This document shows positions 4,883 through 22,838 of a stretch of DNA of 35,147 nt, piece by piece (within the stretch, counting starts at the first letter, position 1; the number at the start of each line of letters is the position of its first letter). Source of the DNA: a virus. The notes beneath the pieces are model-generated. The model ran no database searches. It was not told the origin of the DNA and saw only the letters and a program-made list of their open reading frames with translations. The stretch spans positions 1 to 35,147 of IMG/VR virus record IMGVR_UViG_3300033978_000676; one strand, given 5' to 3'. Both the position numbers and the translations under genes were made by a program.

Positions 4883-5048
4883 TCAGCGCTTGGCCTGTGG
4901 CTTGCCTTCGCGGGCGGTGGCCACAGGAGGGGCATCCTGGAGGCGCAGCATCACCGTGGTCTCCACGGCCACGTTGGCCCAGTCGATGGGCTCGCCATCG
5001 GCCCGGGGGGCCTGGGGGGGGAAAGCTGGGGGGCTGGTGGGTGCTCAT
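4883..5048 (-). pseudogene. Small gene interrupted by a C8 homopolymer (apparent frameshift)
   Basis: ATG 5048 overlaps the stop of the 663-residue gene as ATGA, the coupling used throughout this strand. After nine codons the frame enters a run of eight C at about 5013-5020. Reading straight through gives a proline/arginine-rich shadow-like frame that runs on to 4734, over the opposite HTH gene. Skipping one base in the C run gives instead a natural-looking 54-residue protein with PIDWANVAVETTVMLRLQDAP and stop TGA at 4883-4885. Explanations are a homopolymer sequencing error, a phase-variable tract, or programmed frameshifting. No family was recognised. Confidence 0.5.
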
Positions 5049-7036
5049 TGGGCCAGGGTGGCGCATTGCATCCGGAGGGCATCGATCCGGACCTCCAGGA
5101 TGTTGGCAGCGGCATCACGGCGCCGGCTGCCACCAAGGCGTTGCCGCGGCCCGGCGGCCAGGCCGGCGGCTTCCTTTCCCCGTACCGGAGCAATGCCCCG
5201 CTGGGCGCGGCACTCTTTCGGCAGAGAGATGCAGGCGTTCCCGCAGCTGTAGCCCGTGCGGCACTGCCGCTTGAGAGCGTCGATTCGCTCCTGCAGGCTG
5301 TCGGCCCGGGGCCGCTTGCGCAGACCCAGGGCCATCAGCTCCTGCTCTACAGCGGCGAACACGTCCCGCTCCAGCTCCTGCCGCACCTTCGTTTCAGATT
5401 CGCCCGCTTCCACTCGATCAGCAGCGCGGTTGAGAGCGGAGCTGATGGGCCCGCTGGAGCTCTTCAGACGCTCGAACACCGACAGGGCCTCGCTGGCCTC
5501 GCCGGCAACCTTGGCGCTCTGCTGCTGGTTGATCACGTTGCCAGCCTTCTCCGCGAGGGTGGAGGCTGCTCTGGTCTTGGAGACGGTGCCAAACAGGCGC
5601 TTCTCCCGCGTGATTTTGGCCTTCAGGCCGGCGGAGAGCTTGGCCCGGGTGAAGAGGTTGTCCTTGACCTCCTGGCTCATCCCGAAGAGGTCCATCGTGG
5701 TCTGGGTGCGCTGCTCGCTGGCAGCGGCATGTTCCACCAGCTCGAGCAGCGTCTGATCAGCAATGCCCTTGCGGGAGCCGATCATCTTGAACACCTCCCG
5801 CTGCTTTGCCTCATCGAGGCCGCTGCCGCCAATGATCGCGCCGCGGTTCACGCTCAGATCACCGCGCACCACGGCGTTGAACACCTCGCCGGGCAGCTTG
5901 CTGAGTTTGAGGCCCTTCTCCGCCTGGCCGCTGCGCAGCGGCAGGCCCTTGGCCTCCACATCAGCCTGGGACCTGATGCCAGTGTCGCGGAAAAATTTGG
6001 CGGCATCCATCGGGGTGCCGGCACCCTCGGCAATGTTCTGCATGGCGCCGATCGCCCGGGCTTCGGTGGCGGTTTTTGCGTTGAGGAAGCGCACGGTCAC
6101 CTCCTCGGCTCCCAGGCGCCGGGCCAGGGCCATCCGGTTGTGGCCGTTCACCACGTAGACCTTGCCGTCGGCTGGGTCCTTCCAGACGCTCATCACGCCG
6201 GCGAGGTTTGGATCCCACTTGCGAACACCCGAGAGGCTGCCCACCTCACCGGTGCCCTCAGTGGCGTTCAACTTGTACTGGAACCGCCCTGGATCGAAGA
6301 CGATCTCACCGGGCTTCATGTTGCGGACGGTGCCGGGCTCCGTGGAAGCGCTGGCGGCCTCGGGGAGCTTGCCGGTGCGCAGGTACTCGGCAATCTCGGG
6401 CCGGGCCAACAGCTTCTCCACCCGCTTGGTGGTGCGCTCCTGTTGCCGCTCTCTTGCGGCCACTCCCCGGGCGGCCGACACCTGAGAGGCGGTGGCCACG
6501 GCGGCCTTGTCGCCGGCGGCCGCCAGCTGCTGCAGACGCCGCAGGCGAGCCTGGCCGATCGCGCTGCCCGGGGTGATCCGGCATTCCTTCTGCAGGGAGA
6601 TGCAGGCGGAGCCGCAGCTGTAGCCGGTGGTGCATTTGCGCTTCTGACCGGTGGCCCGGTTACTGCGGCGGAAATCCATCCGCACGGCAGGAGCCCGCAG
6701 CTGCAGGAACGAATCCGATCTCAGCTCCCAGCCACGCTCACCGATGCCGTCCCAGGCGGGCCGGTAGCCGACACCTTCCGCATCGACACGAAAGCGGTAG
6801 ACCAGACCATCGGCGGCCATCCGCCCGGCATGGCCGGCGCCCTCCTGCCGCCAGTCGAGCACCAGGGCGCCGGGAAGGACCTCCGCCAGCAGCTGTTGCA
6901 AGACCGGAGAGACCCGATCGGCAGCGTCATGCCGCAGGGCCGCCGGCCGGCGGGGCAGGGCCTGCCGGGCCGTCGAGACAGGCAACTGGGCCTCGATGGC
7001 CGAGAGGCGATCCTGCAGGGCCTGGTGACGGCTCAT
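5045..7036 (-). CDS. Large tagged protein with ParB-like domain and two CxTGYSCG modules
   Basis: This 663-residue protein starts at ATG 7036, overlapping the upstream stop by four bases. The N-terminal 130 residues are of unknown fold. Residues 135-153 and 592-610 each carry the 19-residue motif CxTGYSCGxxCISxxKECR; the second copy is preceded by the helix SLQERIDALKRQC. Around 230-345 is a ParB/sulfiredoxin-like region with KVYVVNGHNRMALARRLGAE (NGHNR at 297-301), typical of phage ParB-type nuclease or nucleotide-binding domains. The 345-590 part is helical and charged. The C-terminus ends with another RIDALRMQC helix without the following motif. Similar multi-domain phage proteins are called polyvalent proteins and are thought to enter the host with the DNA; whether this one does is inference. 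It lies just before the scaffold gene. Confidence 0.72.
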   Translation of the reverse strand: MSRHQALQDRLSAIEAQLPVSTARQALPRRPAALRHDAADRVSPVLQQLLAEVLPGALVLDWRQEGAGHAGRMAADGLVYRFRVDAEGVGYRPAWDGIGERGWELRSDSFLQLRAPAVRMDFRRSNRATGQKRKCTTGYSCGSACISLQKECRITPGSAIGQARLRRLQQLAAAGDKAAVATASQVSAARGVAARERQQERTTKRVEKLLARPEIAEYLRTGKLPEAASASTEPGTVRNMKPGEIVFDPGRFQYKLNATEGTGEVGSLSGVRKWDPNLAGVMSVWKDPADGKVYVVNGHNRMALARRLGAEEVTVRFLNAKTATEARAIGAMQNIAEGAGTPMDAAKFFRDTGIRSQADVEAKGLPLRSGQAEKGLKLSKLPGEVFNAVVRGDLSVNRGAIIGGSGLDEAKQREVFKMIGSRKGIADQTLLELVEHAAASEQRTQTTMDLFGMSQEVKDNLFTRAKLSAGLKAKITREKRLFGTVSKTRAASTLAEKAGNVINQQQSAKVAGEASEALSVFERLKSSSGPISSALNRAADRVEAGESETKVRQELERDVFAAVEQELMALGLRKRPRADSLQERIDALKRQCRTGYSCGNACISLPKECRAQRGIAPVRGKEAAGLAAGPRQRLGGSRRRDAAANILEVRIDALRMQCATLAQ
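5207..5263 (-). repeat. Cys-motif module copy (663-aa protein, C-terminal copy)
   Basis: This encodes residues 592-610 with the CxTGYSCGxxCISxxKECR pattern. It is preceded upstream (to about 5305) by the RIDALKRQC helix and followed by a short GIAPVRGKEAAG segment, as in the first copy of the 923-residue protein. All seven invariant positions of the motif are kept. Confidence 0.9.
6578..6634 (-). repeat. Cys-motif module copy (663-aa protein, N-terminal copy)
   Basis: This encodes residues 135-153. The motif is intact, but the preceding RIDAL helix is replaced by FRRSNRATGQKRK. The following PGSAIGQARLRRLQQLAA segment matches the downstream part of the other copies. Confidence 0.9.
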
Positions 7037-7530
7037 CGATCAGGGGCCTCCTTCCATGGCCGTGGCGGTGTCAGGCGGCTGCGCAGGTGGTCCGCCGCGG
7101 CAGCACTTGTCGAAGATGCTGCGGAGGTGATCGCGGCCCTCACGTCTGCGGCGGGAATCATCCCGGCTGCCTTGGCAGCATCCTCAACCTCCTGATGCGT
7201 CGGGAATCGAGCCCCCGGTGCAAGGGTCGTCATCGCCTGCTGCTGGATCTCTGCAGCTTGCGACCAGACATCAGCCCGGAGCCTTTCGGCATCCACCACC
7301 TGTTGTTGGAAGGTGATGACCGGCGCCAGCGCCGCTTTCAGGTCTTCGATGGGCTTTGTGGCCACCGCCAGCAGCCGCTCCTCCAGTCCCTCGAGGGCCG
7401 TGTCGATCCGGTCTTCCGCCCGATCCAGCGCGGCATCGATCGCCCCGTTCAGCTGTGGGCGGACCTTGTTTGCCAGTTTCAGGACGAGGCGATCCAGGAG
7501 GGGGTCCAGCAGTCGATCAAGCCAGTTCAT
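7033..7530 (-). CDS. Hypothetical coiled-coil protein
   Basis: This 165-residue protein starts at ATG 7530 and overlaps both neighbours by four bases. Residues 1-110 are an almost continuous amphipathic helix, beginning MNWLDRLLDPLLDRLVLKL and continuing with DAALDRAEDRIDTALEGLEERL, so an extended coiled coil or helical bundle is likely. The C-terminal part is alanine-rich and ends in PPRPWKEAPDR. There is no membrane or secretion signal. The gene sits in one translation-coupled run with the 663-residue protein and the 90-residue protein, so the three probably act together. Function unknown. Confidence 0.7.
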   Translation of the reverse strand: MNWLDRLLDPLLDRLVLKLANKVRPQLNGAIDAALDRAEDRIDTALEGLEERLLAVATKPIEDLKAALAPVITFQQQVVDAERLRADVWSQAAEIQQQAMTTLAPGARFPTHQEVEDAAKAAGMIPAADVRAAITSAASSTSAAAADHLRSRLTPPRPWKEAPDR

Positions 7531-7799
7531 CGGGATACTCCGAGAAGAGTTTTCATGCGCTCGAGCCGGGCCTGCAGGGCATCAATGCGGCTGTCGCCCC
7601 GGTCGCTCTGGCCCGTGCCTTTCGGTCGGTAGGTAACCATGCCGCTTTTGGTGAACTTGAACGTGAAGCGCTGCTGGTTGGACACAAACTCTCCCTGGGG
7701 CTCGCCGCCCTGGTCAGAAATCGAGAGGATCCGCACCGGTCTGATTTGCTCGCTGAGCAGCTCGGTGGCCAGCTGCACCATTTCGGTTCGTCGGTCCAT
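7527..7799 (-). CDS. Hypothetical small protein ending in a RIDAL helix
   Basis: This 90-residue protein starts at ATG 7799. The N-terminal two thirds look beta-rich (FTFKFTKSGMVTYRPKG). The end, GDSRIDALQARLERMKTLLG, is a helix of the same form as the RIDALxxxC helices of the three large tagged proteins, but here the cysteine module is absent. Its stop overlaps the start of the 165-residue coiled-coil gene. No family was recognised. The shared helix suggests a structural partner of the tagged proteins, which is inference. Confidence 0.65.
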   Translation of the reverse strand: MDRRTEMVQLATELLSEQIRPVRILSISDQGGEPQGEFVSNQQRFTFKFTKSGMVTYRPKGTGQSDRGDSRIDALQARLERMKTLLGVSR

Positions 7800-7869
7800 A
7801 GGTTCGATGCGCTTTGGCCTCAGTCTGGGCCCGGTATGGTTGCCCGCTGTGATTCAGTTGCCGTGACCA

Positions 7870-8253
7870 CTAGACCCTCCATTTGAACGGCGGGGAACGC
7901 GGATTCTTGAAATACTTCCCGCTCGGGGTGCCTGTTGCCGGCGCCAAACCCGCCGAAGACGTGGAGACTACTCCGGGCAACCCCAACAGGCTGTTGTAAG
8001 CGATCTGCGCTCCATCGCCGCCGTCGTGGTTGTGGCTGTTGCCGCGAACGTAGGTTTCGATCATCACCGGCAGCGCCTGATCGAGCCGGCCCAGGCTGGC
8101 GCCCGTGGTGCCCGGGGCGTTGACCGGGTTGTCCTCACCGGGGCTGACGGTGATTGCCGGGGCTTCGGACCTGGAGTAAGCCTGCGCTCTGCTGCAGTAG
8201 ATCCGCGTGCCGACCTGCACCGTGCCCGGCAGGGTGACGGTGCAGGTCGGCAC
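7870..8253 (-). CDS. Fibre-tip-like protein sharing a repeat with the 419-aa fibre
   Basis: The most likely start is GTG 8253, giving 127 residues; the frame is open further upstream but overlaps the adhesin gene. The N-terminus is a short beta segment (TCTVTLPGTVQVGTRIY). The C-terminal half contains NSHNHDGGDGAQIAYNSLL and continues through GLPGVVSTSSAGLAPA, nearly identical to a segment of the 419-residue fibre gene and encoded by a 107-base repeat. HNHDGGDG-type segments are common near trimer junctions of phage fibres. It may be a truncated duplicate of the fibre gene or a separate fibre component. Start uncertain. Confidence 0.55.
   Translation of the reverse strand: MPTCTVTLPGTVQVGTRIYCSRAQAYSRSEAPAITVSPGEDNPVNAPGTTGASLGRLDQALPVMIETYVRGNSHNHDGGDGAQIAYNSLLGLPGVVSTSSAGLAPATGTPSGKYFKNPRSPPFKWRV
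7937..8043 (-). repeat. 107-bp direct repeat, copy 1
   Basis: This stretch matches 10234-10340 at about 103 of 107 positions in the same orientation. It encodes the NSHNHDGGDG to SSAGLAPA segment in two different fibre-like genes about 2.3 kb apart, which allows deletion or gene conversion by homologous recombination. Confidence 0.92.
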
Positions 8254-8308
8254 GCGGAGGCTGGGGTGGTCATGGGTGGGGCGTTGTAGTCGGGGATGCT
8301 GCGGGGGG

Positions 8309-9196
8309 CTAGATCGGGTAGCGGATAATGACGATGCCGGAGCCGCCGTTGCCGCCAGTACCGCTTGCACCCGCAGCGCTATGACCACCACCACCACCAC
8401 CGGTATTTGGCTGACCACTGTTTGAGCTTCCGCTGCTAACGCCTGCAGCGCCACCGCCCAAGCCCCCAGCACCGCCTGAGCCGCCTGGGCGGATGCCGCC
8501 GCCGCCGCCGCCTGCTCGTGCAACTGCTGTGCCAGTGATGGTGGATGTTATGCCGTTACCGCCTGCGCCGCTTTGTGTCGAGCTTGTCGCATTTCCGCCC
8601 GGTGCACCCGCGCCGCCGCCGCCACCTGTCGGGAATGGTGACAAGCGAATATTGCCATTACCACCACCGATAGATCCTTGTCCCGTCGTTCCCGAACCGC
8701 CAAATGACTGGCCAAGGCTATTTTCGCCGCCGCCGCCGCCGCTGCCGCCGCTATTGCCGTCACTGGATTGAGCGCCAGCGCCACCTCCTATAGCGATAAC
8801 CGAAGAAAAACTGGAGTTGCCTCCATTCGTGGCTGTGGCGAAGCCTGCTGTGCCGCCTGCGCCAACGACTACGGGATAAGACCCCGCTGTTAATACAAGG
8901 GGTGTTTCTGCGCTGACATTCTGACCAGACAATTCACCTTGAACTGAACATCTATAACCACCGGCGCCACCACCTCCTTTAATAGCAGCGCCACCGCCAG
9001 CAACAATTAAATACTCAACACTCCCTCCATTGGTAACAGAAAACGTAGATGCGCCAACAGTCGTAAACCGGTGCACACGGTAGTTGATGCCGCCAACAGT
9101 TATATCTGTAACAGTATCGCCACCAGTGGCAATAACGCCGCCGGAAGGCGGGGTCAAGCTCCCCACAAACGCCACATCAAACAGGCTGAACGTCAT
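8309..9196 (-). CDS. Glycine-rich tail-fibre adhesin-like protein
   Basis: The start is ATG 9196, overlapping the upstream stop as ATGA, giving 295 residues. After a short N-terminal part comes GINYRVHRFTTVGASTFSV and a VEYLIVAGGGA segment, a common opening of glycine-rich phage fibre proteins. From about residue 75 the sequence is dominated by glycine runs such as GGGGGGIRPGGSGGAGGLGG, ending in GGNGGSGIVIIRYPI. Such glycine-rich regions form polyglycine-II bundles in receptor-binding tips like T2/Salmonella phage gp38. Receptor binding is therefore the likely role. The repeats are prone to recombination, which would alter host range. The gene lies among head genes, which is unusual. Confidence 0.75.
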   Translation of the reverse strand: MTFSLFDVAFVGSLTPPSGGVIATGGDTVTDITVGGINYRVHRFTTVGASTFSVTNGGSVEYLIVAGGGAAIKGGGGAGGYRCSVQGELSGQNVSAETPLVLTAGSYPVVVGAGGTAGFATATNGGNSSFSSVIAIGGGAGAQSSDGNSGGSGGGGGENSLGQSFGGSGTTGQGSIGGGNGNIRLSPFPTGGGGGAGAPGGNATSSTQSGAGGNGITSTITGTAVARAGGGGGGIRPGGSGGAGGLGGGAAGVSSGSSNSGQPNTGGGGGGHSAAGASGTGGNGGSGIVIIRYPI

Positions 9197-9924
9197 AACT
9201 GCACTTCCACCGGCAGCCACTGCAGCGCCGATTCCAAGGCCTCGGTCTCGGGATCGTCCGGCGCATAGGTGCCATCCACCGCCCTCGGCTGATCCCATCG
9301 CCACCGCGACCCATCAGGGCCGGTCCACTCATCGCCTCGCGCCGGATTCGGCGGCCAGTTCCACTGCTGCTGTGCCCCGGCCAGGCCCACCACGAACTCA
9401 GCGGGAAGGTCGTACTGAGTGGCGAGCATCTGCAGCCCTGCGACCAGCTCAGGCGCGATCAGGCCAATGTCCTGGCAGGTCTGCCAGGCGCCCAGGAACA
9501 CCCTGCTGTCACCATCGGCAGCCTTCCCGAGACCCACGCCCAGGGCCAGTGCAAGGCGCGGCGAGACGGTCTGCGCAGCGGCCAGGAGCTGATCCACTCC
9601 CACCGGCAGGGCGTCAGAGAATTCGATCCAGCGGGGCGGGTGCGTCTGGCGGTAGTGCGCCTCTCGCTCAGCTTGGGTCAGCTCCACCAGCTCCCACTGC
9701 TGCAGCCACTGGCCATCGGCTTCGACTGGCTGAGCCTCCACCACGCGATGGGTGGCGGGGTTGGGCTGAGGCTGAGGCTGCGGCGCCACGCGGAACACGC
9801 CGTAGTGCGCCAGCTCAGCATCACTCGGCGCCGCCGAGAACGATCGGGCGGGCTCATCGGTGCGGAGCTGGCCCAGCGAATACGGCCAGCGGAGCGGGTT
9901 GAGGCGGATCAGGGTGCTCATCAT
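9193..9924 (-). CDS. Fibre-associated protein, possibly fibre assembly chaperone
   Basis: This 243-residue protein starts at ATG 9924 or 9921 and overlaps both neighbours. The N-terminal third holds a proline/glutamine linker (VAPQPQPQPNPATH) and the segment QWELVELTQAEREAHYRQT. This resembles the YxVxxLTxEE(I/V)xxR part that often ends phage structural proteins of the DUF4376 kind and tail-fibre-assembly proteins. The centre is helical and the C-terminus contains DEWTGPDGSRWRWDQPRAVDGTYAPDDPET, a typical short beta module. It sits between two fibre-like genes. The assembly or structural role is inferred. Confidence 0.55.
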   Translation of the reverse strand: MMSTLIRLNPLRWPYSLGQLRTDEPARSFSAAPSDAELAHYGVFRVAPQPQPQPNPATHRVVEAQPVEADGQWLQQWELVELTQAEREAHYRQTHPPRWIEFSDALPVGVDQLLAAAQTVSPRLALALGVGLGKAADGDSRVFLGAWQTCQDIGLIAPELVAGLQMLATQYDLPAEFVVGLAGAQQQWNWPPNPARGDEWTGPDGSRWRWDQPRAVDGTYAPDDPETEALESALQWLPVEVQL

Positions 9925-11183
9925 CAGCTCTGCACGGCGTAGGCCGCCACCACGTCAGCGTTGGTGGTTCCAAATGCGGTGATGCTGAGCACGCCCACCT
10001 TCGACGCGGCGATGTTCGCGGGCTTGGTGCCCAGGAACTTCCAATCAGTCGGGAACGTGAGCGTGCGCTGGTTGGCATCGGCCACCAGCCGAATCACCAG
10101 CGTCCGCCCATTGGCCAGGTTGCTGGTGGTCAGCTCCAGATTCCCGGTGAGGCTGATCGTCCGGTACTGGGCATCGAGGCTGGCGAAGTCCAACGCCACC
10201 GTCGCGCCGTAGGTGATCGTCGAAAACGACCTGGCCGGCGCCAAGCCAGCCGAAGACGGGGAGACTACTCCGGGCAACCCCAACAGGCTGTTGTAAGCGA
10301 TCTGCGATCCATCGCCGCCGTCGTGGTTGTGGCTGTTGCCGTTCGTGACGCCCTGGTTGGCGGGTGCCGCGCCGACATCACCGAACCCGAGGACGACGTC
10401 ACCGGTCTGGCTGTTGACGCTGGAGACGGGGGCGATCGGATACCCGAGGCGCTGCCAGTGCGCCAGTGACGATCCGCCATCAACGACCAGGACCCAGGTG
10501 CCGCCGTTGGCGCCGGCATCGGTGCGGATACACCAGTCACCGCGCTGCCCTGAGAAGGTCAGCATCGCCGCTTGGTTGGCGGCCGTGCCCAGAAACTCAG
10601 TGATTGCCAACGACGGCAGCTGAGACGTTGGGATGACGCCCCCAATCAGGTCCGCCTTCAGGGAGAGGTTGGGGGCTCCGGCGAGGCTGGTGTACGGGAG
10701 CTGGCCCGTAACCTCGCTGGAGAGATCTACCGCCGTTCCGGCGCTCCAGGTGTCGGCCGCTGTCCGGCGCACGATGCCGGTGCCGCTTAACCCCTCAACC
10801 GCTGCCAGATCGTTGGCCAGCGCCAGGGTGATCGAGCCGGAAGAGGTGATAGGCCCACCGCTAACCGTGATCCCCGCTGCCGGCTGGCTGATGTTGACGC
10901 TGGTGACCGTGCCAGTCCCGGTAGCGGTAACAGTCAGATTCGTGCCGGTGATGCTCAGCCCATCCGCCAGGTTGAGGTACGTGAGCTTGCCGGCGCTGGC
11001 ATCCCAGAACAGGAGCACGTCTCCAGCAGGGCCCTCGGCATTCAGCTGCTGGCCCGCCAGGCTCAGCACGTCATCGACGCTGGCCCCCAGCGTCACATCT
11101 GTTCCGCTTCCTGGATCGGGGTTCCCGATGGTCGCCTGCAGAACGGTTTCCTGTAGCTGGACGACAGCCGAGATGTCAGTCAC
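9924..11183 (-). CDS. Fibre / tail-fibre-like structural protein
   Basis: This 419-residue protein starts at GTG 11183, overlapping the upstream stop by four bases. It is rich in Thr, Ser, Gly and Val and has typical fibre segments: VDDVLSLAGQQL, then GTGTVTSVNISQPAAGITVSGGPI, then a KADLIGGVIPTSQLPS segment and SSVNSQTGDVVLGFGDVGAA, a repeat found in many phage fibres. Then follows NGNSHNHDGGDGSQIAYNSLL. The C-terminal 110 residues look like a beta-rich trimerisation or tip domain (LANGRTLVIRLVADANQRTLTFP). It would bind receptors or form the shaft. Its position next to head genes leaves a head-fibre role open. Confidence 0.72.
   Translation of the reverse strand: MTDISAVVQLQETVLQATIGNPDPGSGTDVTLGASVDDVLSLAGQQLNAEGPAGDVLLFWDASAGKLTYLNLADGLSITGTNLTVTATGTGTVTSVNISQPAAGITVSGGPITSSGSITLALANDLAAVEGLSGTGIVRRTAADTWSAGTAVDLSSEVTGQLPYTSLAGAPNLSLKADLIGGVIPTSQLPSLAITEFLGTAANQAAMLTFSGQRGDWCIRTDAGANGGTWVLVVDGGSSLAHWQRLGYPIAPVSSVNSQTGDVVLGFGDVGAAPANQGVTNGNSHNHDGGDGSQIAYNSLLGLPGVVSPSSAGLAPARSFSTITYGATVALDFASLDAQYRTISLTGNLELTTSNLANGRTLVIRLVADANQRTLTFPTDWKFLGTKPANIAASKVGVLSITAFGTTNADVVAAYAVQS
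10234..10340 (-). repeat. 107-bp direct repeat, copy 2
   Basis: This is the partner of 7937-8043, with about four mismatches, inside the 419-residue fibre gene. The mismatches mostly change one residue (Ala to Ser, Thr to Pro), so both copies remain coding. Confidence 0.92.
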
Positions 11184-11533
11184 GACGCACTCCCGATTCG
11201 GGTGATCTCTTGCGTGCCAGCGAAGAGCGGAACGATCAGTCCGGTGGATAGAATGACAATGATCTCCCAGTAGTAGAGACCGACCGTCAACGGGAGGACC
11301 TGCGGCAGCACCCGAAAAACACCGCCGGTGGCGTTGGTGATCTGGATGCCGGTGTTGACCCCCATCGCCAGTCGCTCGGCTCTCTCTCCCACTCGCCGGT
11401 AAACCATTTGCAGCTGCGCACCGGTGAGGTTTAGAGGCGTGCCGGCCGGCATCTCCAGGGTGACCGAATTGATTCCCTCCCAGGTCGTGCCTTCATAGAC
11501 GGCATCGAGCTGCAGGGTTTGCGGCTGTGTCAC
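11180..11533 (-). CDS. Baseplate/fibre-adjacent beta protein
   Basis: The most natural start is GTG 11533, giving 117 residues beginning MTQPQTLQLDAVYEGTTW; the frame is open upstream to 11785 but that part overlaps the preceding gene. The pattern of a short DVYEGDTW-like start, then LNLTGAQLQMVYRRVG, a GIQITNATGGVFRVLP strand and LTVGLYYWEIIVIL matches the small beta-sandwich proteins encoded beside phage fibres, related to N-terminal baseplate-anchoring modules. It probably links the fibre to the particle. It overlaps the start of the 419-residue fibre gene. Start and exact family are uncertain. Confidence 0.6.
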   Translation of the reverse strand: MTQPQTLQLDAVYEGTTWEGINSVTLEMPAGTPLNLTGAQLQMVYRRVGERAERLAMGVNTGIQITNATGGVFRVLPQVLPLTVGLYYWEIIVILSTGLIVPLFAGTQEITRIGSAS

Positions 11534-11570
11534 GACTGATGAACGGATGCCGTCAAGGTAGGCATGGCGC

Positions 11571-12281: not shown

Positions 12282-12323
12282 TACTACCTAGGGTTGTTGC
12301 TGTCTGGGTGCAATAGTACACAG

Positions 12324-12678: not shown

Positions 12679-12920
12679 GCCAGGGGAAGGCCTCAACCGC
12701 TGCACGACCTCAGAATCTGCTGCTGACAGTGGCCGATGCCGCGGAAGCGTTGAGTGTGAGCGAGAAGTACATCAGGCGCCTGACTCTGCGCGATGCACTG
12801 CAACAGCGCCTGATCAGCTACGCGGCTGAGGTGCGATCGGGTCACCACCAGGCCCCACCGTCACCGACCGCAGCACCGCCGCAAACAGCACCCGTTGCTG
12901 TTCAGGTGTCGCGCCATTGA
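12675..12920 (+). CDS. Small excisionase-like HTH protein overlapping the recombinase 3' end
   Basis: The coupled start is GTG 12675 (81 residues); an upstream in-frame ATG at 12630 overlaps the preceding gene. Residues about 15-40, LLTVADAAEALSVSEKYIRRL, match the winged-helix opening of MerR/excisionase proteins (TVxEAAxxLGVSxxxVRRL). The last 36 residues are Pro/Ala/Gln-rich and lie antisense to the end of the serine recombinase gene, so the true C-terminus may be shorter in function. A DNA-bending partner next to a recombinase suggests a directionality factor, which is inference. Confidence 0.5.
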   Translation: MSQGKASTAARPQNLLLTVADAAEALSVSEKYIRRLTLRDALQQRLISYAAEVRSGHHQAPPSPTAAPPQTAPVAVQVSRH

Positions 12921-16054: not shown

Positions 16055-16058
16055 GGGC

Positions 16059-16301: not shown

Positions 16302-16375
16302 CAGTACCTCTCATTGAACGCCAGTTTGCCATGCTTCACCATTGTTTGCCTTGCCTGAGTCACACTTGATTCCAC

Positions 16376-19300
16376 TCAATCATGCAGTGCTGGGTGATAC
16401 TGCTTCAGAGCGCGAGGGGCAAAAACCCACGCAGTGAAAGACTCGGCGAACAGCTCCTCTCGGTTTGTCAGTGAATACTTAGACGGCCCACGACCCTGAT
16501 TCAAGGACTGGGTAACAGCTGCCGGTGTTGAACGTTGCCGTTCAGAATGCAGGCTGTGCATCAGGACAGTTTCACCTTTGCCGCTCGAAGTGTTTGCCGG
16601 CAGATCAGTGCGCAGCCGCACGCCGGCAAAACTGTCGACAGCGTGCCCTAATTCGTGTACGTGAACAGAAATAGCCTTTTCTGCACCTGTCAAATTAAAG
16701 CCGTATCCGATTGGCATACTTTTAACATTCCACGTCTCTGGATCCGAATCACTTAGACTGCCTAGTCGCTCTGGCAGGTGCTTTGCTATGTGGCTGCTGT
16801 AAGACCGCCTAAGTTTTCTAGGGTCTATTTTGGACGCTTCAGGCTTAAGGTCACCGTCCCATCCAGTAGTCCCAGCTCTTGCCACATAGGCTTTTTGCCC
16901 AAACACATAAAAGCCTCCTGAGTTGAGGTCGGCGAGCCCCTTTGTGTTACTGGTTATCAGTTCTTGAGCCGCCCATTTCAATTCATTTAGGCGACTCTCT
17001 TTAAGAGAGTTGTACGTTTTTCGTGCATAAGAGACATTTGTGGTGTAGTAAGAAAGCTCCTTTTTCCTGTCTTCTTCAAATCGCCATCCCTGAGCGATGC
17101 CTCGGTCGAACTGGGCCGTTTGATCTGCGAGGTCTGCAAGGTGATCGGCCAGTCGTTGCTTTGCCCTCAGTTCTTCCGGTGCTGGCTTGAGCTTTGACGG
17201 GTTCCTGATTATCTCCGCCTTGCGGACCAAGCCTGCACCGGCGATGGTGTTGTCTTTCCGCATCCATTCCATGCGTTCATCACTGACCAGCCCCATCTCG
17301 ACAACCATTTTGGCAAGTTTTTTTCCGTCATTCCATGGGATCTCTTTAGACCCAATTTCCTTGCCGGTGATTCGCTTGATTTCGCCGGAACTTTCTGCTG
17401 CCACGTTTACAAGGATGCCGGCTTCCTCCATAAACGCCAGAGCCTTCCTCGCGTTCACACCAGCCTCTCCTGGCGCATCACGCGCCACCTTCAGGAGCGC
17501 TGCCGCCAATTCCTCGCCCCCGTAGTTCACTGCACCGGTGCGAATTGTGCGCTCCTTGATGCCCTGTGCAATGCGGGCTTCCACCTCAGGGCTGAATGGC
17601 AGGTTTGTGGGGATCAGTCCATCACGACCTAACTGCCCCCTTTGCTCCAGCAGCTGCAGGGCTTTCTGGCTTCGTTGGGCGGCGATGCCCTGAGCAATCT
17701 CCGCAGCCTCTCCAGTCTTCACCGTGCCGATGCCTCGCTGGTTAGATGGGGCCCCGCCGGCCAGGGCCAGCAGGCGCTTCAGCCGTTCCTTCCCGATTGC
17801 GCTGCCCGGACTGGTGCGGCACTCCTTCCGCAGGCTGATGCACGTCGCCCCGCAGCTGTAGCCCGTGCTGCATTTTCGGCGAAGGGCGTCGATCCGCTGC
17901 TGCAGGCTGTTGCCTCTGAAGAGGCTTTTCAAGGTCGAATCAGCCCGCGGCGACTGCAGGCGCTCTCTCCTGATCCGCACAGCTCGGAAGACGTTGTTCA
18001 GGCCCCAGACCCATTGATCCTGATCGCCCTGCTCAGGGACGATCCAATCCTCAAAGCGGGGGTCTCGATAGCGCTCATTCCTTCGCTGGCGGGCGGGGCT
18101 GGCATCAGTCAGCAGCCTTGACGCCGACATGAAACGCTGGCCTGCGATGTAGCGCTCAGCATCCACTCCGGTCAGTTGCGTGCGCGCAGTCCAGCGATGT
18201 CCATCCGGTCCCCCATACGCTTCTGGTCCCCCATAGCGGGCAATTTCGTCGTCAATGTCTGCCATCTGATCGTCAAAAAACTTCCTGCGCTCAGGATCTG
18301 TCGATCGGTAAGCCTGCTGCTTGATCTGCTCGGTGGCCCAGTTCAGCTCATCGGTGCTCATCCGCTGGGTGACAGCCGCCTCAAACAGGCTGCCCACCAG
18401 CCCTGGCGTCTTGTCACTGGGTTGGCGCCGTGGGTAGAGGATGTAGCCGTCATCCCCGAAGAACAGCTCGTCATTCTTGGCGGCCATTTTTTTGAGTCCG
18501 GTGGGCCGCGGGAGGCCTTCACCTTTCGGCTTGATCGGTCGTTCAGGGAAGGAAGGCCGCTTGTTGCGGATGACCCGTGGTTCTCTGTCGCCACCTGTGG
18601 CCTTCTCCCCTTGGCCGCCCGCCTCCCCTTCGCCGAGCTTCAGGGGCTTGGCTCCGACAAAGGAGCCCTCGCTCATCCAGGCGCCTCCCGGATACCAGTG
18701 GCCATCGGGCCCTGTTTCGCCGCCAGGCTTGGCCCGCCGCAGCTGCACGATCACCTTGGGCTTCTTCACCCCTGCGGCGGCGGCCGCGGCTTCCTGCCGC
18801 TTGCGTTCGGCTTTCACCAGGGCCTGCTTTTCGCTGTTCTCTGCCCGGATCTTTCCGGCCATCGCCTGGGCTTCGGCTGCATTGGGCACGCCGATTCCCC
18901 GGGGCTTGATGTCACCTCGAGCCAGTGAGAAGAGGCGCTGCAGCCGCTCTTTTCCCGTCGTGCTGCCGGGGCTGACCCTGCACTCCTTCTGGATGCTGAT
19001 GCAGGCGCGGCCGCAGCTGTAGCCGGTGGTGCAGCGGCGCTTCAAGGCATCAATCCGTTCCTGGATGCTGTCGGCACGGTTGGCTCCCTGCTCGGCCTCA
19101 GCCGCCACAACGGCCTCCAGGCGCTTTCTGGCCTTCTGGATTCGCTTATCCACGTCCTCCACCTTGTAGTGCATGTCGCCGTTGAAAGACCCATGGGTCG
19201 GCATGCGCGTTTTCCCGAGTCGTTCCGCAACACGCGCAGCAACCCAGTGGCTGACCATGGTGGAGCGCTCATGCGGCATCAGATGGGCCTCCTCAGGCGT

Positions 19301-20092
19301 TGAGGCGGCCCGGGGGGCGATGCCAACGCGCCGGGCCATCACCTTGGCGGGCATGGCGTGGCTGCTGCCTGGCATGACCCATTCGAGGCCGCGGCCATAC
19401 TCGTTGCGGCTGATCTGCGGCTCAGGCGGGGTTTCCTGCTCGATCTCGCGATAGATGTTGCCGATCCGCTTGAGCTCTTGCTGGAGCTGGGCCTTCTCCA
19501 TCTCGAGCTTGGCAACCGTCTGGGCACTGGATCGGACCCGCTTGAACCCTGCTTTTTGGTCGGCGGTGTTGAAGCCCAGCAGCTTTACCGCCGTCTCGCT
19601 GCTCACCAGGCCGGTGCTGCCATCGGGCCTGCGCACCTTGAACTGGTGAACCACCCGTCTGCCGGTTTCGGCATTCTGCTCTGAACGCTCCCAGTCGCTG
19701 ACCCGCTTGAGCTGCTCCTCTCCGTGGCTGTCCTGGAAGCTGTCCATCATCCACTGCCATTCGTAGGCCAGCAGCTCAGCCCCTGATGGGCCCTTCACTG
19801 GCGGATTGAAGGAAATGGGCTCCACAGGCCGGCGGCGGCGGGTGTCGTCTGGTGGAGCGCCTGGATCTGCCCCTTGGCCTTTGTGGCATTCCTTGTCGCG
19901 ATTGATCCAGCCCTGACCGCACGGCTCACCAGTGCCCTTACCTGCTGCTGGAGGGCTGCCTCCTAAATCGAGACCCAGCTGGCCTGGGACTTCAGCTCGG
20001 CGCCGGAGGGCATCCAGGCGGTGCTGGATCAGCTGTGCACGGATCAGCGCAGGCCGGGTCTGCATGTCAGCAGCATCTGGCGCGCAGGGCAT
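16376..20092 (-). CDS. Giant polyvalent-type protein with HExxH metallopeptidase and CxTGYSCG modules
   Basis: This 1238-residue protein starts at ATG 20092 or slightly downstream, overlapping the preceding gene by 26 bases. Residues 58-70 hold a degenerate module (CGQGWINRDKECH). Residues 354-372 and 741-759 carry the full motif CxTGYSCGxxCISxxKECR, each preceded by a RIDALxxxC helix and followed by a PGSxxGKERLxRL helix. Between them lies an unassigned region with GPDGHWYPGGAWMSEGSFVG. Near the C-terminus, VHVHELGHAVDSF gives a zinc metallopeptidase motif HELGH at 1146-1150 and NREELFAESF (Glu1212, 1213, 1217) a possible third ligand. The layout resembles phage polyvalent proteins that enter the host with DNA. 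Substrate is unknown. The 16400-17900 part is less GC-rich than the flanks by eye. Confidence 0.75.
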   Translation of the reverse strand: MPCAPDAADMQTRPALIRAQLIQHRLDALRRRAEVPGQLGLDLGGSPPAAGKGTGEPCGQGWINRDKECHKGQGADPGAPPDDTRRRRPVEPISFNPPVKGPSGAELLAYEWQWMMDSFQDSHGEEQLKRVSDWERSEQNAETGRRVVHQFKVRRPDGSTGLVSSETAVKLLGFNTADQKAGFKRVRSSAQTVAKLEMEKAQLQQELKRIGNIYREIEQETPPEPQISRNEYGRGLEWVMPGSSHAMPAKVMARRVGIAPRAASTPEEAHLMPHERSTMVSHWVAARVAERLGKTRMPTHGSFNGDMHYKVEDVDKRIQKARKRLEAVVAAEAEQGANRADSIQERIDALKRRCTTGYSCGRACISIQKECRVSPGSTTGKERLQRLFSLARGDIKPRGIGVPNAAEAQAMAGKIRAENSEKQALVKAERKRQEAAAAAAGVKKPKVIVQLRRAKPGGETGPDGHWYPGGAWMSEGSFVGAKPLKLGEGEAGGQGEKATGGDREPRVIRNKRPSFPERPIKPKGEGLPRPTGLKKMAAKNDELFFGDDGYILYPRRQPSDKTPGLVGSLFEAAVTQRMSTDELNWATEQIKQQAYRSTDPERRKFFDDQMADIDDEIARYGGPEAYGGPDGHRWTARTQLTGVDAERYIAGQRFMSASRLLTDASPARQRRNERYRDPRFEDWIVPEQGDQDQWVWGLNNVFRAVRIRRERLQSPRADSTLKSLFRGNSLQQRIDALRRKCSTGYSCGATCISLRKECRTSPGSAIGKERLKRLLALAGGAPSNQRGIGTVKTGEAAEIAQGIAAQRSQKALQLLEQRGQLGRDGLIPTNLPFSPEVEARIAQGIKERTIRTGAVNYGGEELAAALLKVARDAPGEAGVNARKALAFMEEAGILVNVAAESSGEIKRITGKEIGSKEIPWNDGKKLAKMVVEMGLVSDERMEWMRKDNTIAGAGLVRKAEIIRNPSKLKPAPEELRAKQRLADHLADLADQTAQFDRGIAQGWRFEEDRKKELSYYTTNVSYARKTYNSLKESRLNELKWAAQELITSNTKGLADLNSGGFYVFGQKAYVARAGTTGWDGDLKPEASKIDPRKLRRSYSSHIAKHLPERLGSLSDSDPETWNVKSMPIGYGFNLTGAEKAISVHVHELGHAVDSFAGVRLRTDLPANTSSGKGETVLMHSLHSERQRSTPAAVTQSLNQGRGPSKYSLTNREELFAESFTAWVFAPRALKQYHPALHD
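17816..17872 (-). repeat. Cys-motif module copy (1238-aa protein, second full copy)
   Basis: This encodes residues 741-759, preceded by NSLQQRIDALRRK and followed by TSPGSAIGKERLKRLLALAGG. The downstream QRGIGTVKTGEAAEIAQGI segment also matches that of the 923-residue protein, so the duplicated unit extends over about 65 residues. Confidence 0.9.
18977..19033 (-). repeat. Cys-motif module copy (1238-aa protein, first full copy)
   Basis: This encodes residues 354-372, preceded by ADSIQERIDALKRR and followed by VSPGSTTGKERLQRLFSLARG. All motif cysteines are present. Confidence 0.9.
19883..19921 (-). repeat. Degenerate Cys-motif module near the N-terminus of the 1238-aa protein
   Basis: Residues 58-70 read CGQGWINRDKECH. 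They align to the second half of the motif with the central Cys replaced by Trp. The first half is absent. It is probably a decayed or divergent copy. Confidence 0.6.
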
Positions 20093-22838
20093 CGAGGCGA
20101 TCCTGAATGACGGAATCCATCAGTGCTTTCACGCTGTTCTTCATGCTGACCAGCTTCTCGAACACCTTCCGATCACCGCCGGCATCCGGGTGGTGCTTCA
20201 TGGCCAGCTTGCGGAAGGCCTTGTCCACATCGGCCTTGGTGGCCTTTTTCGGATCCAGGCCGAAGGCCACCCAGGGGCGGAAGTTCTTGAGGATGTCCAC
20301 CCCGTTGATGACGCTGCCGCCGTCCTTGAGGCCACGCTCATCCCTGGGGACCGCAACGAACCGCCGATAGAGCTGGCGCCACTCCTCCTCGGCGTTCTTG
20401 CCCTTGAGGGTGCGGGGGTTGTCACCCACGACCGACTGCTGAAAATTCTTGTTGGCCATCAGGGCGGCCGTGCTCTTCACGTTGAACGACTTGAAAACCG
20501 CCGATCGCATCTCCCTGATGGTCATGGGCTTGGCCGTGCTGGCCGGGCCCTTCCCTTGGCCCTCCGATGCCTTCTCACTTCCTCCCCTGCTGGAGGGGGC
20601 CTCCTTGGCCCTGGCGCCACCGCTGACAGCAGGGCCGCCTTCCTTGCCAGCCGCCAGGGCGAGAATCCGCGTCATCTTCTGCTGATTGGCGCCGCCGGGG
20701 GTCTTGCGGCAGACCTTGCCCATCGAAATGCAGCTGGCCCCGCAGCTGTAGCCGGTGCGGCACTGCCGCTTCACGGCATCGATGCGCTGCGTGGCCATCG
20801 CCTCACGGATCAGCCGCTGGATTCGCTGCTCACGGCTGTCGGTGCGGCGGTTCATGCTGCCGAAGGTGTTGGTGCCCACGGCCTTCATCAGCTCATCCAA
20901 TGCGGGGGCCATCTTCGCGATCTGCTCCTTGTTGGGCCACAGGGGGCTCTCACCGCCCAGGCCTGAGAGGTAGGTGTTCTCCTGCCCCTTGGTCTTCAGC
21001 TTGTGCTGCACGTACCGCTCGAAGGTGCGGGCGAACACCTCACGGCCTGAAGTCCAGTATGAATATTGAGCGCTGCCAGCTTTGATTCCATAGCCTGCCA
21101 GTCCGTCTCTCAGGGTAAACCGAAAGTCTGTGTCATCGATAGCCTTTCGGACGCTATCCATAGCCTTCCAAACCGGATTATCCGCCTGGCTTTTAGTCCC
21201 ACCATTCGGGTCCCAGTACAAACCACTGGTTTGCTCGCTCAGGTATGCTGGTCCACTCCTCATGCGTGATTTACCGCGGGGAGTTTGCTGGCCGATGTAA
21301 TCATCCAAGGCGTGCCCCCATTCGTGGGCCAGGGTGCCGACACCGTTCTTCCGGGTGATGTTGATCACTTTTGTCCCCGGCTCGTAGTGTGCCGCGGCCC
21401 GACCCTTGCCTCTGGCTCCGAAGGCCAGGCCCAGCTGGCCGTCCAGCGAGATGGCCCGATCTGGGAGCCCCGTCACGTCCGCCAGGTCGACCAGGGCCTC
21501 GGCGGTCTTGCGCAGGTGGTGGGCCCTTTCTTCATCGGTGACGCTGTTGCCGAACTGCAGGCCCCGCATTCCCATTCGGTTGGCGAGCACCGTGGTGGAC
21601 CCGGCCGGCGTGTCATCGACACCCAGGGCGCGGCCGCCAGTGCGGACCGCCCTCTTCACGTAGAGGTCGGCGGCGTTGATGGTCGCCCCGCCGCGCTGCA
21701 CCCCGGTGACCTTGTCGATCGAGGCCCCCCCCAGGATCTCCTGTGTGGCGTTGCGCATCACATCCGCCAGCTCAGCGGTGCTCTTTCCGTCGTTGGCCTT
21801 CTTGAGGCGGACCCCCAGGGTGTTGATCTGCCCGGTAACTGACGTTTTGGAGTAGCTGCCTCTGCTGGCCTTGTTGGTGAGGTCCACCAAGGAGTTGGCC
21901 AGGGGGTTGTAGCGATCGTATGTGTCCAGGGAGCGATTCCCCCTGATGGCCGTGATCCGGTTGGTGGTGGCCCGGGAAATTTCCGCGAGCATCTCGCGCG
22001 GATCAGCATCATCCCGTCGGCGGTCGATGATGCCCTTCACCTCCTGAAGGTGGTCGTAGTAGAGCTTGCGCATCTCCGCCGGGGTCTTCTTCCCGGTGAT
22101 CTGGGCCCGGTTGTAAGCCTGGAAGGCCTTATCGGTGAAAGGCTGCGCCGGAAAGGATTTCAGGGCCAGGTGGCCGGCCAGGCGGGTGAGGTAGTTGGCG
22201 TTGGTGAGGCCTTCCGTCAGGTCGAGCGGCTCGGCTTTGAGCAGCTTGTCTCGGGTGACCATGGCCGCGGCCGTGCCATCGGCTTCTGCCTCGCTCAGCG
22301 AACGCCACTGGTTGGCCTTGTGCCGAGCGGAGCCCTTCAGGTCTTCCCCGACATTCCCCACAGTTGACGGCCTGGCGAACTCGTAGTCCGGATCCGCTGC
22401 CTTGGCGGCCCGATCGGCCTCACCCCGGGGGGTGCCGGCCGGCGCCATAGGGCGATCGCCGGCGCTTGGGCGTGGCTGGCGGGCCTGTGCGGCGGCCTTG
22501 GCCGCGGCCTCTGCCGCCTGTGCTGCTTGGGCCTTCTCTGCCGCGGCCTGCTGGCGTACCCCCCGCAGCTGGCCCGCTTTCTCCCCCCGGCGGGTGGCGA
22601 TACCCTCGGCCAGCTCACCGGCCTCCTTGGCCTTCACCGGGGCAATGCCGCGCTGGCTGGAGGCGCCCCCGGCCGCCAGGGCCAGCAGGCGCTTGAGGCG
22701 TTCCTTCCCGATCGCCGACCCCGGGCTGGTGCGGCATTCCTTCCGCAGGGAGATGCAGGTGCTCCCGCAGCTGTAGCCCGTGCGGCACTGCCGTTTGAGG
22801 GCGTCGATCCGCTGCTGCAGGCTGTCAGCCAGGTTCAT
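20067..22838 (-). CDS. Polyvalent protein: LPD1-like metallopeptidase, J-domain, two CxTGYSCG modules
   Basis: This 923-residue protein starts at ATG 22838, overlapping the portal stop by four bases. The N-terminus is SLQQRIDALKRQC followed by the motif CxTGYSCGxxCISxxKECR (18-36), then an Ala-rich linker (about 85-125) and a helical region. Around 460-520, LGLAFGARGKGRAAAHYEPG, VINITRKNG and LAHEWGHALDDYIG match large polyvalent-protein-associated domain 1, with HEWGH at 505-509. A second motif copy is at 693-711. The C-terminus is a J-domain, WVAFGLDPKKATKADVDKAF with HPD at 883-885, ending in another DALRARCC helix. Polyvalent proteins of phages are thought to be injected and to act on host targets. 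Combining a peptidase-like domain with a J-domain could target Hsp70 clients, which is speculation. Confidence 0.82.
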   Translation of the reverse strand: MNLADSLQQRIDALKRQCRTGYSCGSTCISLRKECRTSPGSAIGKERLKRLLALAAGGASSQRGIAPVKAKEAGELAEGIATRRGEKAGQLRGVRQQAAAEKAQAAQAAEAAAKAAAQARQPRPSAGDRPMAPAGTPRGEADRAAKAADPDYEFARPSTVGNVGEDLKGSARHKANQWRSLSEAEADGTAAAMVTRDKLLKAEPLDLTEGLTNANYLTRLAGHLALKSFPAQPFTDKAFQAYNRAQITGKKTPAEMRKLYYDHLQEVKGIIDRRRDDADPREMLAEISRATTNRITAIRGNRSLDTYDRYNPLANSLVDLTNKASRGSYSKTSVTGQINTLGVRLKKANDGKSTAELADVMRNATQEILGGASIDKVTGVQRGGATINAADLYVKRAVRTGGRALGVDDTPAGSTTVLANRMGMRGLQFGNSVTDEERAHHLRKTAEALVDLADVTGLPDRAISLDGQLGLAFGARGKGRAAAHYEPGTKVINITRKNGVGTLAHEWGHALDDYIGQQTPRGKSRMRSGPAYLSEQTSGLYWDPNGGTKSQADNPVWKAMDSVRKAIDDTDFRFTLRDGLAGYGIKAGSAQYSYWTSGREVFARTFERYVQHKLKTKGQENTYLSGLGGESPLWPNKEQIAKMAPALDELMKAVGTNTFGSMNRRTDSREQRIQRLIREAMATQRIDAVKRQCRTGYSCGASCISMGKVCRKTPGGANQQKMTRILALAAGKEGGPAVSGGARAKEAPSSRGGSEKASEGQGKGPASTAKPMTIREMRSAVFKSFNVKSTAALMANKNFQQSVVGDNPRTLKGKNAEEEWRQLYRRFVAVPRDERGLKDGGSVINGVDILKNFRPWVAFGLDPKKATKADVDKAFRKLAMKHHPDAGGDRKVFEKLVSMKNSVKALMDSVIQDRLDALRARCC
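20706..20762 (-). repeat. Cys-motif module copy (923-aa protein, second copy)
   Basis: This encodes residues 693-711, preceded by MATQRIDAVKRQ. The KECR end is changed to KVCR, and the following helix is PGGANQQKMTRILALAAG. It is the most divergent of the full copies. Confidence 0.88.
22731..22787 (-). repeat. Cys-motif module copy (923-aa protein, N-terminal copy)
   Basis: This encodes residues 18-36 at the very N-terminus. It is followed by TSPGSAIGKERLKRLLALAA and QRGIAPVKAKEAGELAEGI, the longest form of the unit. DNA identity with the copy at 17816-17872 is high over the flanking 180 bases. Confidence 0.9.

Follow-up and report, generated by a model that had tools for sequence, protein, structure and literature searches.

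A candidate loading-and-processing cassette with a cysteine knuckle on large head-cluster proteins of cyanophage-related viruses

What is the role of a cysteine motif that recurs in several large phage proteins encoded among the head genes? This question is raised by IMG/VR virus record IMGVR_UViG_3300033978_000676, whose 35,147 nucleotides (positions 1 to 35,147, hereafter the window) encode proteins of 923, 1238 and 663 residues with repeated copies of such a motif; all genes under discussion are on the minus strand. The answer that we favor, with a probability of roughly three in four, is that the motif is the last part of a three-part cassette, composed of a leader, a prohead-protease site of the form R-x-D↓ (the arrow marks the predicted cut) and a four-cysteine knuckle, and that this cassette would serve the loading of the proteins into the prohead and their processing therein, the knuckle being left on the cargo.

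The motif C.TGYSCG..CIS..K.CR occurs in six copies, two in each of the three proteins, and every copy spans 57 bases with no insertion or deletion, at the places given by the original prediction. As 38-51 of the 57 bases are common between copies at the DNA level, they are diverged repeats and not fresh duplications. A strict regular expression returns seven matches in the window, six of which are the real copies. A further copy, earlier described as degenerate, is indeed present near the start of the 1238-residue protein, but it represents a recurring two-cysteine form of the tag. Moreover, the tetrapeptide RIDA is found at equal spacing ahead of five of the six copies, while the first copy of the 663-residue protein is preceded by RMDF, which means that the more general element is R-x-D; the RIDAL helix previously reported to precede most copies is one version of it. 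The occurrences of RIDAL or RLDAL that had been described as the helix alone were all recovered (Table 1), but not all of them keep that interpretation, since the ends of the 663- and 923-residue proteins (RIDALRMQC and RLDALRARCC-stop, respectively) look like truncated tags. In the viral locus L026 a third tag is complete, and its start corresponds to the last RIDALRMQC of the 663-residue protein; the window's protein looks like a deletion form. Likewise, the 90-residue protein looks like a stand-alone copy of the leader domain that opens the 663-residue protein.

The presence of the tag on three unrelated proteins, as first proposed, holds, but understates its reach, as the module recurs in several phage lineages and on many proteins. 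With the six window copies as query, 64 viral loci were recovered, and an iterated hidden Markov model (HMM) of the module detected 171 domains in 117 open reading frames (ORFs) from these first 64 loci, the window and stretches of three named phages, overlapping loci included. Among 50,697 annotated phage records, the 56-residue module matched PaV-LD (in seven places), CL131 and S-CBWM1. Broader or lineage-specific scans gave 105 confirmed stretches (80 kept), 16 of the S-CBWM1 type (including S-CBWM1), 6 of the CL131 type and 50 of the PaV-LD type. Over 179 loci, many of which overlap, the strict regular expression yielded 176 distinct modules, and a looser one 184, with a few chance minus-strand frames among them; 14 module matches are located on one 154 kb contig. 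In PaV-LD, all seven tagged proteins are encoded within gp58-gp87, between portal gp57 and tape measure gp88 (chance 1e-5), and in CL131 the four tagged genes found (gp044, gp045, gp047 and gp048) are all within gp041-gp048, between capsid gp040 and tape measure gp049 (chance 4e-6), the intervals behind both chance figures having been picked after the fact. No match to the 56-residue module was found in plasmids, no four-cysteine tag in 40 of 209 kb of Dolichospermum phage Dfl-JY45, and the PHROG of the module had 0 matches in 14 control genomes. A description of the cassette was not found in the literature searched, which covered titles and abstract openings, with most subscription journals outside coverage.

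The coupling between R-x-D and the knuckle is tight. Of the 132 distinct modules set 40 or more residues into their ORF, 129 have R-x-D in the 30 residues ahead of the first cysteine (C1), compared with 10 for KxD, 19 for RxE, 5 for KxE, 22 for DxR, 29 for ExR, 4 for RxN, 22 for DxK, 12 for RD and 10 for RxxD in the same modules. When the 30 upstream residues were clustered at 40% identity, R-x-D was retained in 53/56 and the controls in 1-13. In loci recruited with PaV-LD-type letters, where the query holds no R-x-D, the element was present in 30/30; the CL131-type loci are the weakest group, with 16/19. Considering all 176 distinct modules, 153 have R-x-D within 40 residues, 21 more are within 60 residues of the ORF start, and 2 have neither. 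The distance from the end of the strict-form tetrapeptide to C1 ranges over 2-36 residues and is most often 4 (40 residues examined); downstream of the knuckle, the strict R[hydrophobic]D[ASG] form was found in 0/181 stretches. Since nearly all modules have R-x-D upstream or lie near the start, the knuckle would come to lie near a protein N-terminus either by the start codon or, on the reading proposed here, by a cut after R-x-D.

The same element is found in the capsid protein, the portal and the scaffold. R-x-D is close to the start of 29/29 distinct capsid-protein ORFs found (11 N-termini at 70% clustering), and in 12 aligned capsid proteins (22-90% identity to that of the window) only 14 residues are invariant, its R and D being two of them although the rest of the tail varies. 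Many portals have R-x-D near both ends, and protease-scaffold proteins contain many copies. Counts of R[AVILMFYQT]D[ASG] were compared with those expected by shuffling. In PaV-LD (142 coding sequences), there are 20 in the 31 proteins from the portal to gp087 (2.2 expected), 0 in 110 others (4.4 expected) and 1 in the tape measure protein. In CL131, counted over 110 of 149 coding sequences, without the terminase and the last 2.8 kb, there are 14 in 26 head-region proteins (3.7 expected) and 2 in 84 others (3.8 expected); the accessible part of the literature on this phage gives 23 virion proteins, determined by liquid chromatography-tandem mass spectrometry. In the window, allowing a wider last position, the 923-, 1238-, 663- and 90-residue proteins hold 14 (2.6 expected) and five other head proteins 11 (1.9), together 25 (4.5 expected), while 16 other proteins hold 3 (2.7 expected). 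Site and tag are separable, as indicated by two further phages: S-CBS4 has sites on the capsid protein, the portal and the MuF-like gp013 (labeled by reading), with no four-cysteine tag in 45 of 69 kb, and in 25 of 55 kb of Pam3 there is no tag, no capsid-tail site and none in portal or scaffold, with two strict-type sites in the cement protein.

An experimental anchor is provided by phage TLS, as the window capsid protein is homologous to those of T1-group phages. According to the available text of the TLS paper, the virion capsid protein has the Edman N-terminus ASDMGIW (PMC11447400). In the TLS gene, ASDMGIW comes directly after RGAKND, which places the cut after K-N-D; therefore, the rule basic-x-Asp↓small fits TLS with lysine and the phages studied here with arginine. 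With the cyanophage protease HMM, the TLS protease reaches 85.8 bits, and its match to Pfam DUF2213 is at 4.4e-23. Among 47 TLS coding sequences counted, the protease-scaffold holds 12 [KR]xD[ASG] (1.1 expected), nine of them in the C-terminal half, five other head proteins hold 3 (2.0 expected), and 41 others show no excess (15; 17 expected). By eye, [KR]xD also lies beside the presumed mature start in three out of seven further capsid relatives, namely BUCT618 and Vibrio 13VT501A (both RAD↓A) and Henu8 (KGD↓A). Moreover, the accessible text on SPN3US states that its protease cuts after A-x-E, with Ser preferred at P1' (PMC10052503), and the R-x-D site is of the same P3-x-P1 acidic form. In the tagged proteins, the leader is located upstream of such a P3-x-P1(acidic) site, common to capsid protein, portal or scaffold. 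Based on the shared sites and on TLS, we infer with some force that the DUF2213 protease would cleave the tagged proteins at R-x-D. One could also argue that a host or cargo protease cuts R-x-D after entry, releasing the effectors in the new host, as metallopeptidase-like cargo is found beside the sites; we give this very little credit, since capsid protein and portal carry the same motif at their N-termini and the scaffold is rich in it, and since TLS virions contain a capsid protein cut at the corresponding position.

We then considered the leader. A domain of ~75-90 residues upstream of R-x-D is common to the 663- and 90-residue proteins, four of the seven tagged proteins of PaV-LD and several contigs (L116, L151 and L196 among them), while the leader of the 923-residue protein is composed of 12 residues, predicted as a helix (MNLADSLQQRID). 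For the N-terminus of the 663-residue protein, AlphaFold predicts a helix-four strands-helix leader (mean predicted local distance difference test, pLDDT, of 91-94 in the sheet and 79-85 in the last helix), then a linker with the cut site (54-59), the knuckle with three short strands (88-93) and a helix. The module folded alone gave a poor model (pLDDT 63), a confident knuckle being obtained in the longer construct. Compared with the PDB, the leader fold had its best Foldseek E-value at 0.12 (none at 0.001), which does not imply a novel fold, and in VIA the best row had Z 4.0 (root-mean-square deviation 4.5, 83 aligned), with none at Z 5 or more. The leading rows from the viral fold library are cyanophage proteins: the first seven include the ParB-like protein of Nodularia phage 2AV2, four rows fit PaV-LD gp078, gp079, gp061 and gp065, assigned by protein length, and two A0A2H4 entries were taken for CL131 proteins, one of them having the protein length of gp045. 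Capsid targeting and a cleavage site, at first proposed as alternatives, are both kept, but apparently not as alternatives: they would be two parts of one cassette, the leader plus R-x-D↓.

Regarding the knuckle, 89 of the scored forms have all four cysteines, 17 keep C2 and C4 alone, 12 lack a cysteine at the standard C1 place, and the eight other combinations have 0. Nine of the 12 remain when a shorter context is used, and in 9/9 a cysteine lies one or two positions before that place. From the joint loss of C1 and C3, with C2 and C4 staying, we infer two disulfides, C1 paired with C3 and C2 with C4. Such paired loss also disfavors the zinc knuckle that had been put forward as an alternative and that we tried as the main reading: the four cysteines are not kept together as the ligands of one site would be, C1 and C3 being absent as a pair in 17 variants, although a metal may be bound by the four-cysteine form. 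More broadly, the module could be a zinc knuckle or ribbon binding nucleic acid, with the tagged proteins DNA- or RNA-associated and R-x-D acting as a structural helix cap; its four cysteines in a basic setting and a predicted beta-hairpin at C2-x3-C3 (one of two models is low-confidence) would agree with this. We regard it as improbable, as the cysteine losses suggest two pairs instead of one four-ligand site, and a helix cap leaves unexplained both R-x-D at the capsid and portal N-termini and its enrichment in the scaffold. A profile search of solved structures with the knuckle module gave no match at E up to 1.

A host origin of the domain was also considered and set aside, on the basis of one pattern scan of 84,980 species genomes, which gave 19 stretches and three called relatives, none cyanobacterial; this negative is weak because the pattern was narrow. 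On our reading, two of the called relatives are chance matches, one in an S41-type peptidase and the other in a 56-residue frame, and the third is a Pararhodobacter protein with a similar knuckle. The frame of this third relative (L077, 9758-10090) encodes 78 residues from its likely start and has an apparent signal peptide. Its end, CRVCRTGYACGNSCISRSYRCHQPRGCACDG, closely resembles the phage knuckle, and a good match to a Pfam or NCBIfam family was not obtained. The apparent signal peptide would fit an oxidised element, but the similarity may be convergent.

The cargo found behind the tags differs from protein to protein. BLAST clustering of the 425 segments located behind tags gave 38 groups, of which 16 have a single member. 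Several groups recur in different settings, in single-tag genes but also in second or third place within a multi-tag protein, after four-cysteine or two-cysteine tags. This strongly supports the earlier notion of a common tag on different cargo. In homologues of the 1238-residue protein in L010 and L011, different blocks come directly behind RLDALKRRC. The table of partner domains that had been suggested was drawn up with Pfam over the 117 tagged ORFs (62 + 55, some of them near relatives; the first scans took 62 of 65 non-redundant tagged ORFs, three short or broken ones being excluded), at E up to 0.001 and with some matches below curated cut-offs. The partners include LPD1 (14), DnaJ (11), APH-type kinase (11), ADP-ribosyltransferase (ART, 4), ATLF-like metallopeptidase (4), M90 (3), zeta toxin (2) and GNAT (2), as well as several lipase, cutinase or thioesterase matches on a few proteins. 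In the window, the 923-residue protein matches LPD1 at 46.8 bits and DnaJ at 28 bits and so qualifies as a polyvalent protein, the 663-residue protein has a phrog_21 stretch and a weak ParB-like match, and the 1238-residue protein has sub-threshold matches only. Overall, the cargo matches are enzymatic or polyvalent. This bears on another reading, namely that the tags belong to a single family of ordinary minor structural proteins, of head or tail, and that the repeats are duplicated structural domains. The tagged genes do lie in a structural neighbourhood, the PaV-LD record labels gp081 and gp085 as virion proteins, and PHROG 16619, called a minor head protein, matches the knuckle and one tagged protein at 2.7e-264; the same profile also matches the window's MuF protein, in another part. 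Nevertheless, the cargo matches are enzymatic and differ between proteins (LPD1, DnaJ, APH-type kinase, ADP-ribosyltransferase, zeta toxin, lipase-like, M90), and we consider that explanation very unlikely. Pfam MuF had no match in the three tagged proteins of the window or in the 117 tagged ORFs (E 0.001).

Several observations weigh against the proposed cassette. R-x-D is a short motif, noticed and counted in the same data; contigs were recruited by cysteine patterns, but the comparison that confirmed the 64-locus and 105-stretch scans used RIDA-containing queries. Conservation of R-x-D in alignments A11 and A13 is not independent, because both were filtered for it. The general R-x-D is also found within 30 residues downstream of the knuckle in 7/87 modules, and the CL131 portal has internal RFDA and RADA, which are unlikely to be cut. 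In the TLS GenBank entry (L217 15087-16061), ASDMGIW starts at residue 28, whereas the available text of the paper gives 45 residues removed from the capsid protein (PMC11447400). Pam3 has the same capsid and DUF2213 families without a site at the capsid N-terminus, so the specificity is not universal, and the capsid relatives of Yersinia X1, ctsHD2, Brigit and CUB19 show, by eye, no [KR]xD beside the presumed mature start. Finally, tags of the S-CBWM1 type stand at the extreme N-terminus, with neither a leader nor R-x-D. In S-CBWM1 itself, the knuckle takes up that position in at least four proteins (gp106, the RIO-like kinase gp113, the ChoK-like gp161 and the APH-like gp162), gp161 and gp162 being some genes before tail sheath and portal. 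In S-CBWM1-like contigs (L134, L136, L138-L143 and L147; up to 277 kb), the tagged frame is around position 8000 and has the knuckle close to its N-terminus, with no R-x-D leader, and three of their tagged frames that were scanned gave one zeta-toxin and two kinase matches. Therefore, the knuckle can occur without cleavage, and we read these modules as having little or nothing to remove.

The S-CBWM1 lineage raises the possibility that the knuckle itself is the packaging signal, binding portal, capsid inner face or DNA, and that R-x-D cleavage is housekeeping that exposes it. In line with such a role, the knuckle of S-CBWM1 and its relatives opens kinases, a zeta toxin-like protein and one with a weak HNH match, with neither leader nor R-x-D, and all lineages were found via the knuckle. 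However, a conserved folded leader upstream of the knuckle, in proteins like the 663-residue one and in most of the PaV-LD-type proteins read, would be needless for a knuckle-only signal, and the 90-residue protein is a leader without a knuckle; we therefore hold a signal in the knuckle to be possible but unlikely.

According to the three-part cassette, a removable leader (a predicted helix of ~12 residues or a helix-four strands-helix domain of roughly 75-90 residues) would be followed by a site for the phage's DUF2213 prohead protease, basic-x-Asp↓small (R-x-D↓A/S/G, sometimes F), and by the four-cysteine knuckle and its following helix, which would stay at the new N-terminus of the cargo. 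The precursor would be made from the late head cluster, as its gene position suggests. By analogy with T4 and P1 DarB, the leader would then bring it into the prohead core along with capsid protein, portal and protease-scaffold. At maturation, the protease would cut the R-x-D sites, degrade its own scaffold and trim capsid protein and portal, and the 923-, 1238- and 663-residue polyproteins would be cut into several enzymes with a knuckle at the front of each. The mature cargo would then be held in the head and leave with the DNA, the enzymes acting in the host, as suggested by the cargo type and the literature on polyvalent proteins. Perhaps the knuckle provides a disulfide-stabilised mature N-terminus for ejection or docking. 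A bolder and more tentative proposal, to which we give somewhat less than even odds, is that of a cyanophage effector-delivery passport: any enzyme behind leader, RxD↓ and cysteine knuckle would be packed, cut apart in the capsid, and guided or protected by its knuckle during ejection into the cyanobacterium. Such a passport would correspond, in phages, to the effector tags of secretion systems, could be predicted by sequence and would allow the injected effectors of a phage to be listed.

The features of the window are collected in Table 1. On the minus strand, the gene order is portal, 923- and 1238-residue proteins, an 80-residue frame, MuF, a serine recombinase and tail-fibre-like genes, followed by the 90-, 165- and 663-residue proteins, the protease-scaffold, a cement-like protein and the capsid protein. 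The protease-scaffold matches Pfam DUF2213 at 137 bits (curated cut-off 22), with the cement-like gene and then the capsid gene downstream. By capsid protein (S-CBS4, 45%) as well as by module, the nearest named relatives of the window are cyanophages, which makes a cyanobacterial (photosynthetic) host likely.

Table 1. Tagged proteins, tag elements and head genes of the window.
Feature	Position	Strand	Remark
Portal (Phage_portal_3)	22835-24805	-	R-x-D near N-terminus (24749-24760) and C-terminus (22901-22912)
923 aa tagged protein	20067-22838	-	short leader, knuckle, CLCA_X-like/LPD1 cargo, R-x-D, knuckle, J-domain cargo, truncated third tag
RIDA, aa 10-13 of 923 aa protein	22800-22811	-	predicted cut after D12
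Four-Cys knuckle copy 1, 923 aa protein	22731-22787	-
RIDA, aa 685-688 of 923 aa protein	20775-20786	-	predicted cut
Four-Cys knuckle copy 2, 923 aa protein	20706-20762	-
RLDA, aa 914-917 of 923 aa protein	20088-20099	-	C-terminus, likely truncated-tag remnant
1238 aa tagged protein	16376-20092	-	three tags; C-terminal HELGHAVDS metallopeptidase-like cargo (weak ATLF match, below curated cut-off)
RLDA, aa 25-28 of 1238 aa protein	20009-20020	-	before two-Cys tag
Two-Cys form of tag (GTGEPCGQGWINRDKECH), aa 53-70 of 1238 aa protein	19883-19936	-
RIDA, aa 346-349 of 1238 aa protein	19046-19057	-	predicted cut
Four-Cys knuckle, 1238 aa protein	18977-19033	-
RIDA, aa 733-736 of 1238 aa protein	17885-17896	-	predicted cut
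Four-Cys knuckle, 1238 aa protein	17816-17872	-
MuF gene	14669-16054	-
90 aa protein	7527-7799	-	putative stand-alone leader domain, RID↓A near end
RIDA, aa 71 of 90 aa protein	7578-7589	-
663 aa tagged protein	5045-7036	-	leader domain, RMD↓F, knuckle, ParB/DdrB-like cargo, RID↓A, knuckle, truncated third tag
Leader (propeptide) domain, 663 aa protein	6695-6913	-	model residues 37-109, helix-4 strands-helix
RMDF, aa 119-122 of 663 aa protein	6671-6682	-	predicted cut in low-confidence linker
Four-Cys knuckle, 663 aa protein	6578-6634	-	three short strands in model
RIDA, aa 584-587 of 663 aa protein	5276-5287	-	predicted cut
Four-Cys knuckle, 663 aa protein	5207-5263	-
RIDA, aa 650-653 of 663 aa protein	5078-5089	-	likely remnant of third tag
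DUF2213 prohead protease-scaffold	3284-4579	-	proposed processing enzyme; five R-x-D[ASG] in C-terminal part
Major capsid protein (phrog_264)	1676-2611	-
RMDD, aa 4-7 of major capsid protein	2591-2602	-

Some additional features of the region were observed. The serine-recombinase-like gene (12814-14130, minus strand; 438 residues, start MAAIGYARVSKDDQ), labeled by reading its translation, is located within the structural cluster, between MuF and the fibre-like genes. The phrase SHNHDGGDG.QIAYNSLLGLPGVVS is common to the minus-strand frames 7870-8523 and 9924-11183, which suggests a duplicated tail-fibre segment, adjoining a glycine-rich protein (8309-9304). Opposite the structural genes and just upstream of the protease gene, a 75-residue helix-turn-helix-like frame with GVSQQQLAQHLEVHRSAVSRW is found on the plus strand (4655-4882); the regulator gene gp037 of CL131 is in a similar place.

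Phage-carried, injected proteins usually go unrecognised without virion and ejection proteomics. If R-x-D↓ and the knuckle mark them, the injected effectors of a large, mostly cyanobacterial phage group could be read from sequence, many of them without a named family. Moreover, it offers a concrete rule for DUF2213 head proteases, basic-x-Asp↓small, anchored by the published TLS N-terminus, and a clear prediction, that of polyprotein processing inside the capsid; the leader could also serve as a portable loading tag for cyanophage capsids.

By comparison with known systems, we read the cassette as working like the capsid targeting of T4 and P1, in a modular, polyprotein-processing variant. In T4, internal proteins carry a capsid targeting sequence (CTS) as leader, as far as is known one per protein, and are processed by gp21. 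The cassette proposed here would share with T4 the N-terminal leader, its removal by the head protease at a P3-x-acidic motif and the delivery of cargo with the DNA; it differs in being repeated inside a polyprotein and in that it would leave a cysteine knuckle on each cargo. Roles of CTS and propeptides in phage systems are mentioned in the accessible parts of PMC9024508 and PMC10052503. The first of these also states that the first 30 residues of P1 DarB suffice to package TetR-mCherry (PMC9024508), a short N-terminal signal on a giant defence protein that resembles the present case, and P1 DdrB has a ParB domain (PMC5512222, available text), like the 663-residue cargo; no repeated cysteine tag or internal cleavage is described for P1 in the available portions of these sources. 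The propeptides of SPN3US and phiKZ, of 20-254 residues and present on ejected and structural proteins (PMC10052503, accessible text), are similar in following a P3-x-P1 rule with a small P1' preferred, while here the site is R-x-D, the enzyme a DUF2213 protease with fused scaffold, and the tag shuffled between cargoes. Polyvalent proteins, described as multi-domain, with MPTase, ParB, ART or zeta-like domains, encoded near late genes and predicted to be packaged (Iyer et al. 2017, PMC5512222, available text), resemble the tagged proteins in these domains and in their location; however, no common packaging or cleavage cassette is described in that text, and words beginning with 'cysteine', 'cyanophage' or 'DnaJ' are absent from its main text. 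Finally, TLS and the T1 group share a homologous capsid protein and DUF2213 protease and a cut that, as read from the gene, follows K-N-D, the differences being K instead of R at P3 and, in the accessible text on TLS (PMC11447400), no mention of a cargo tag.

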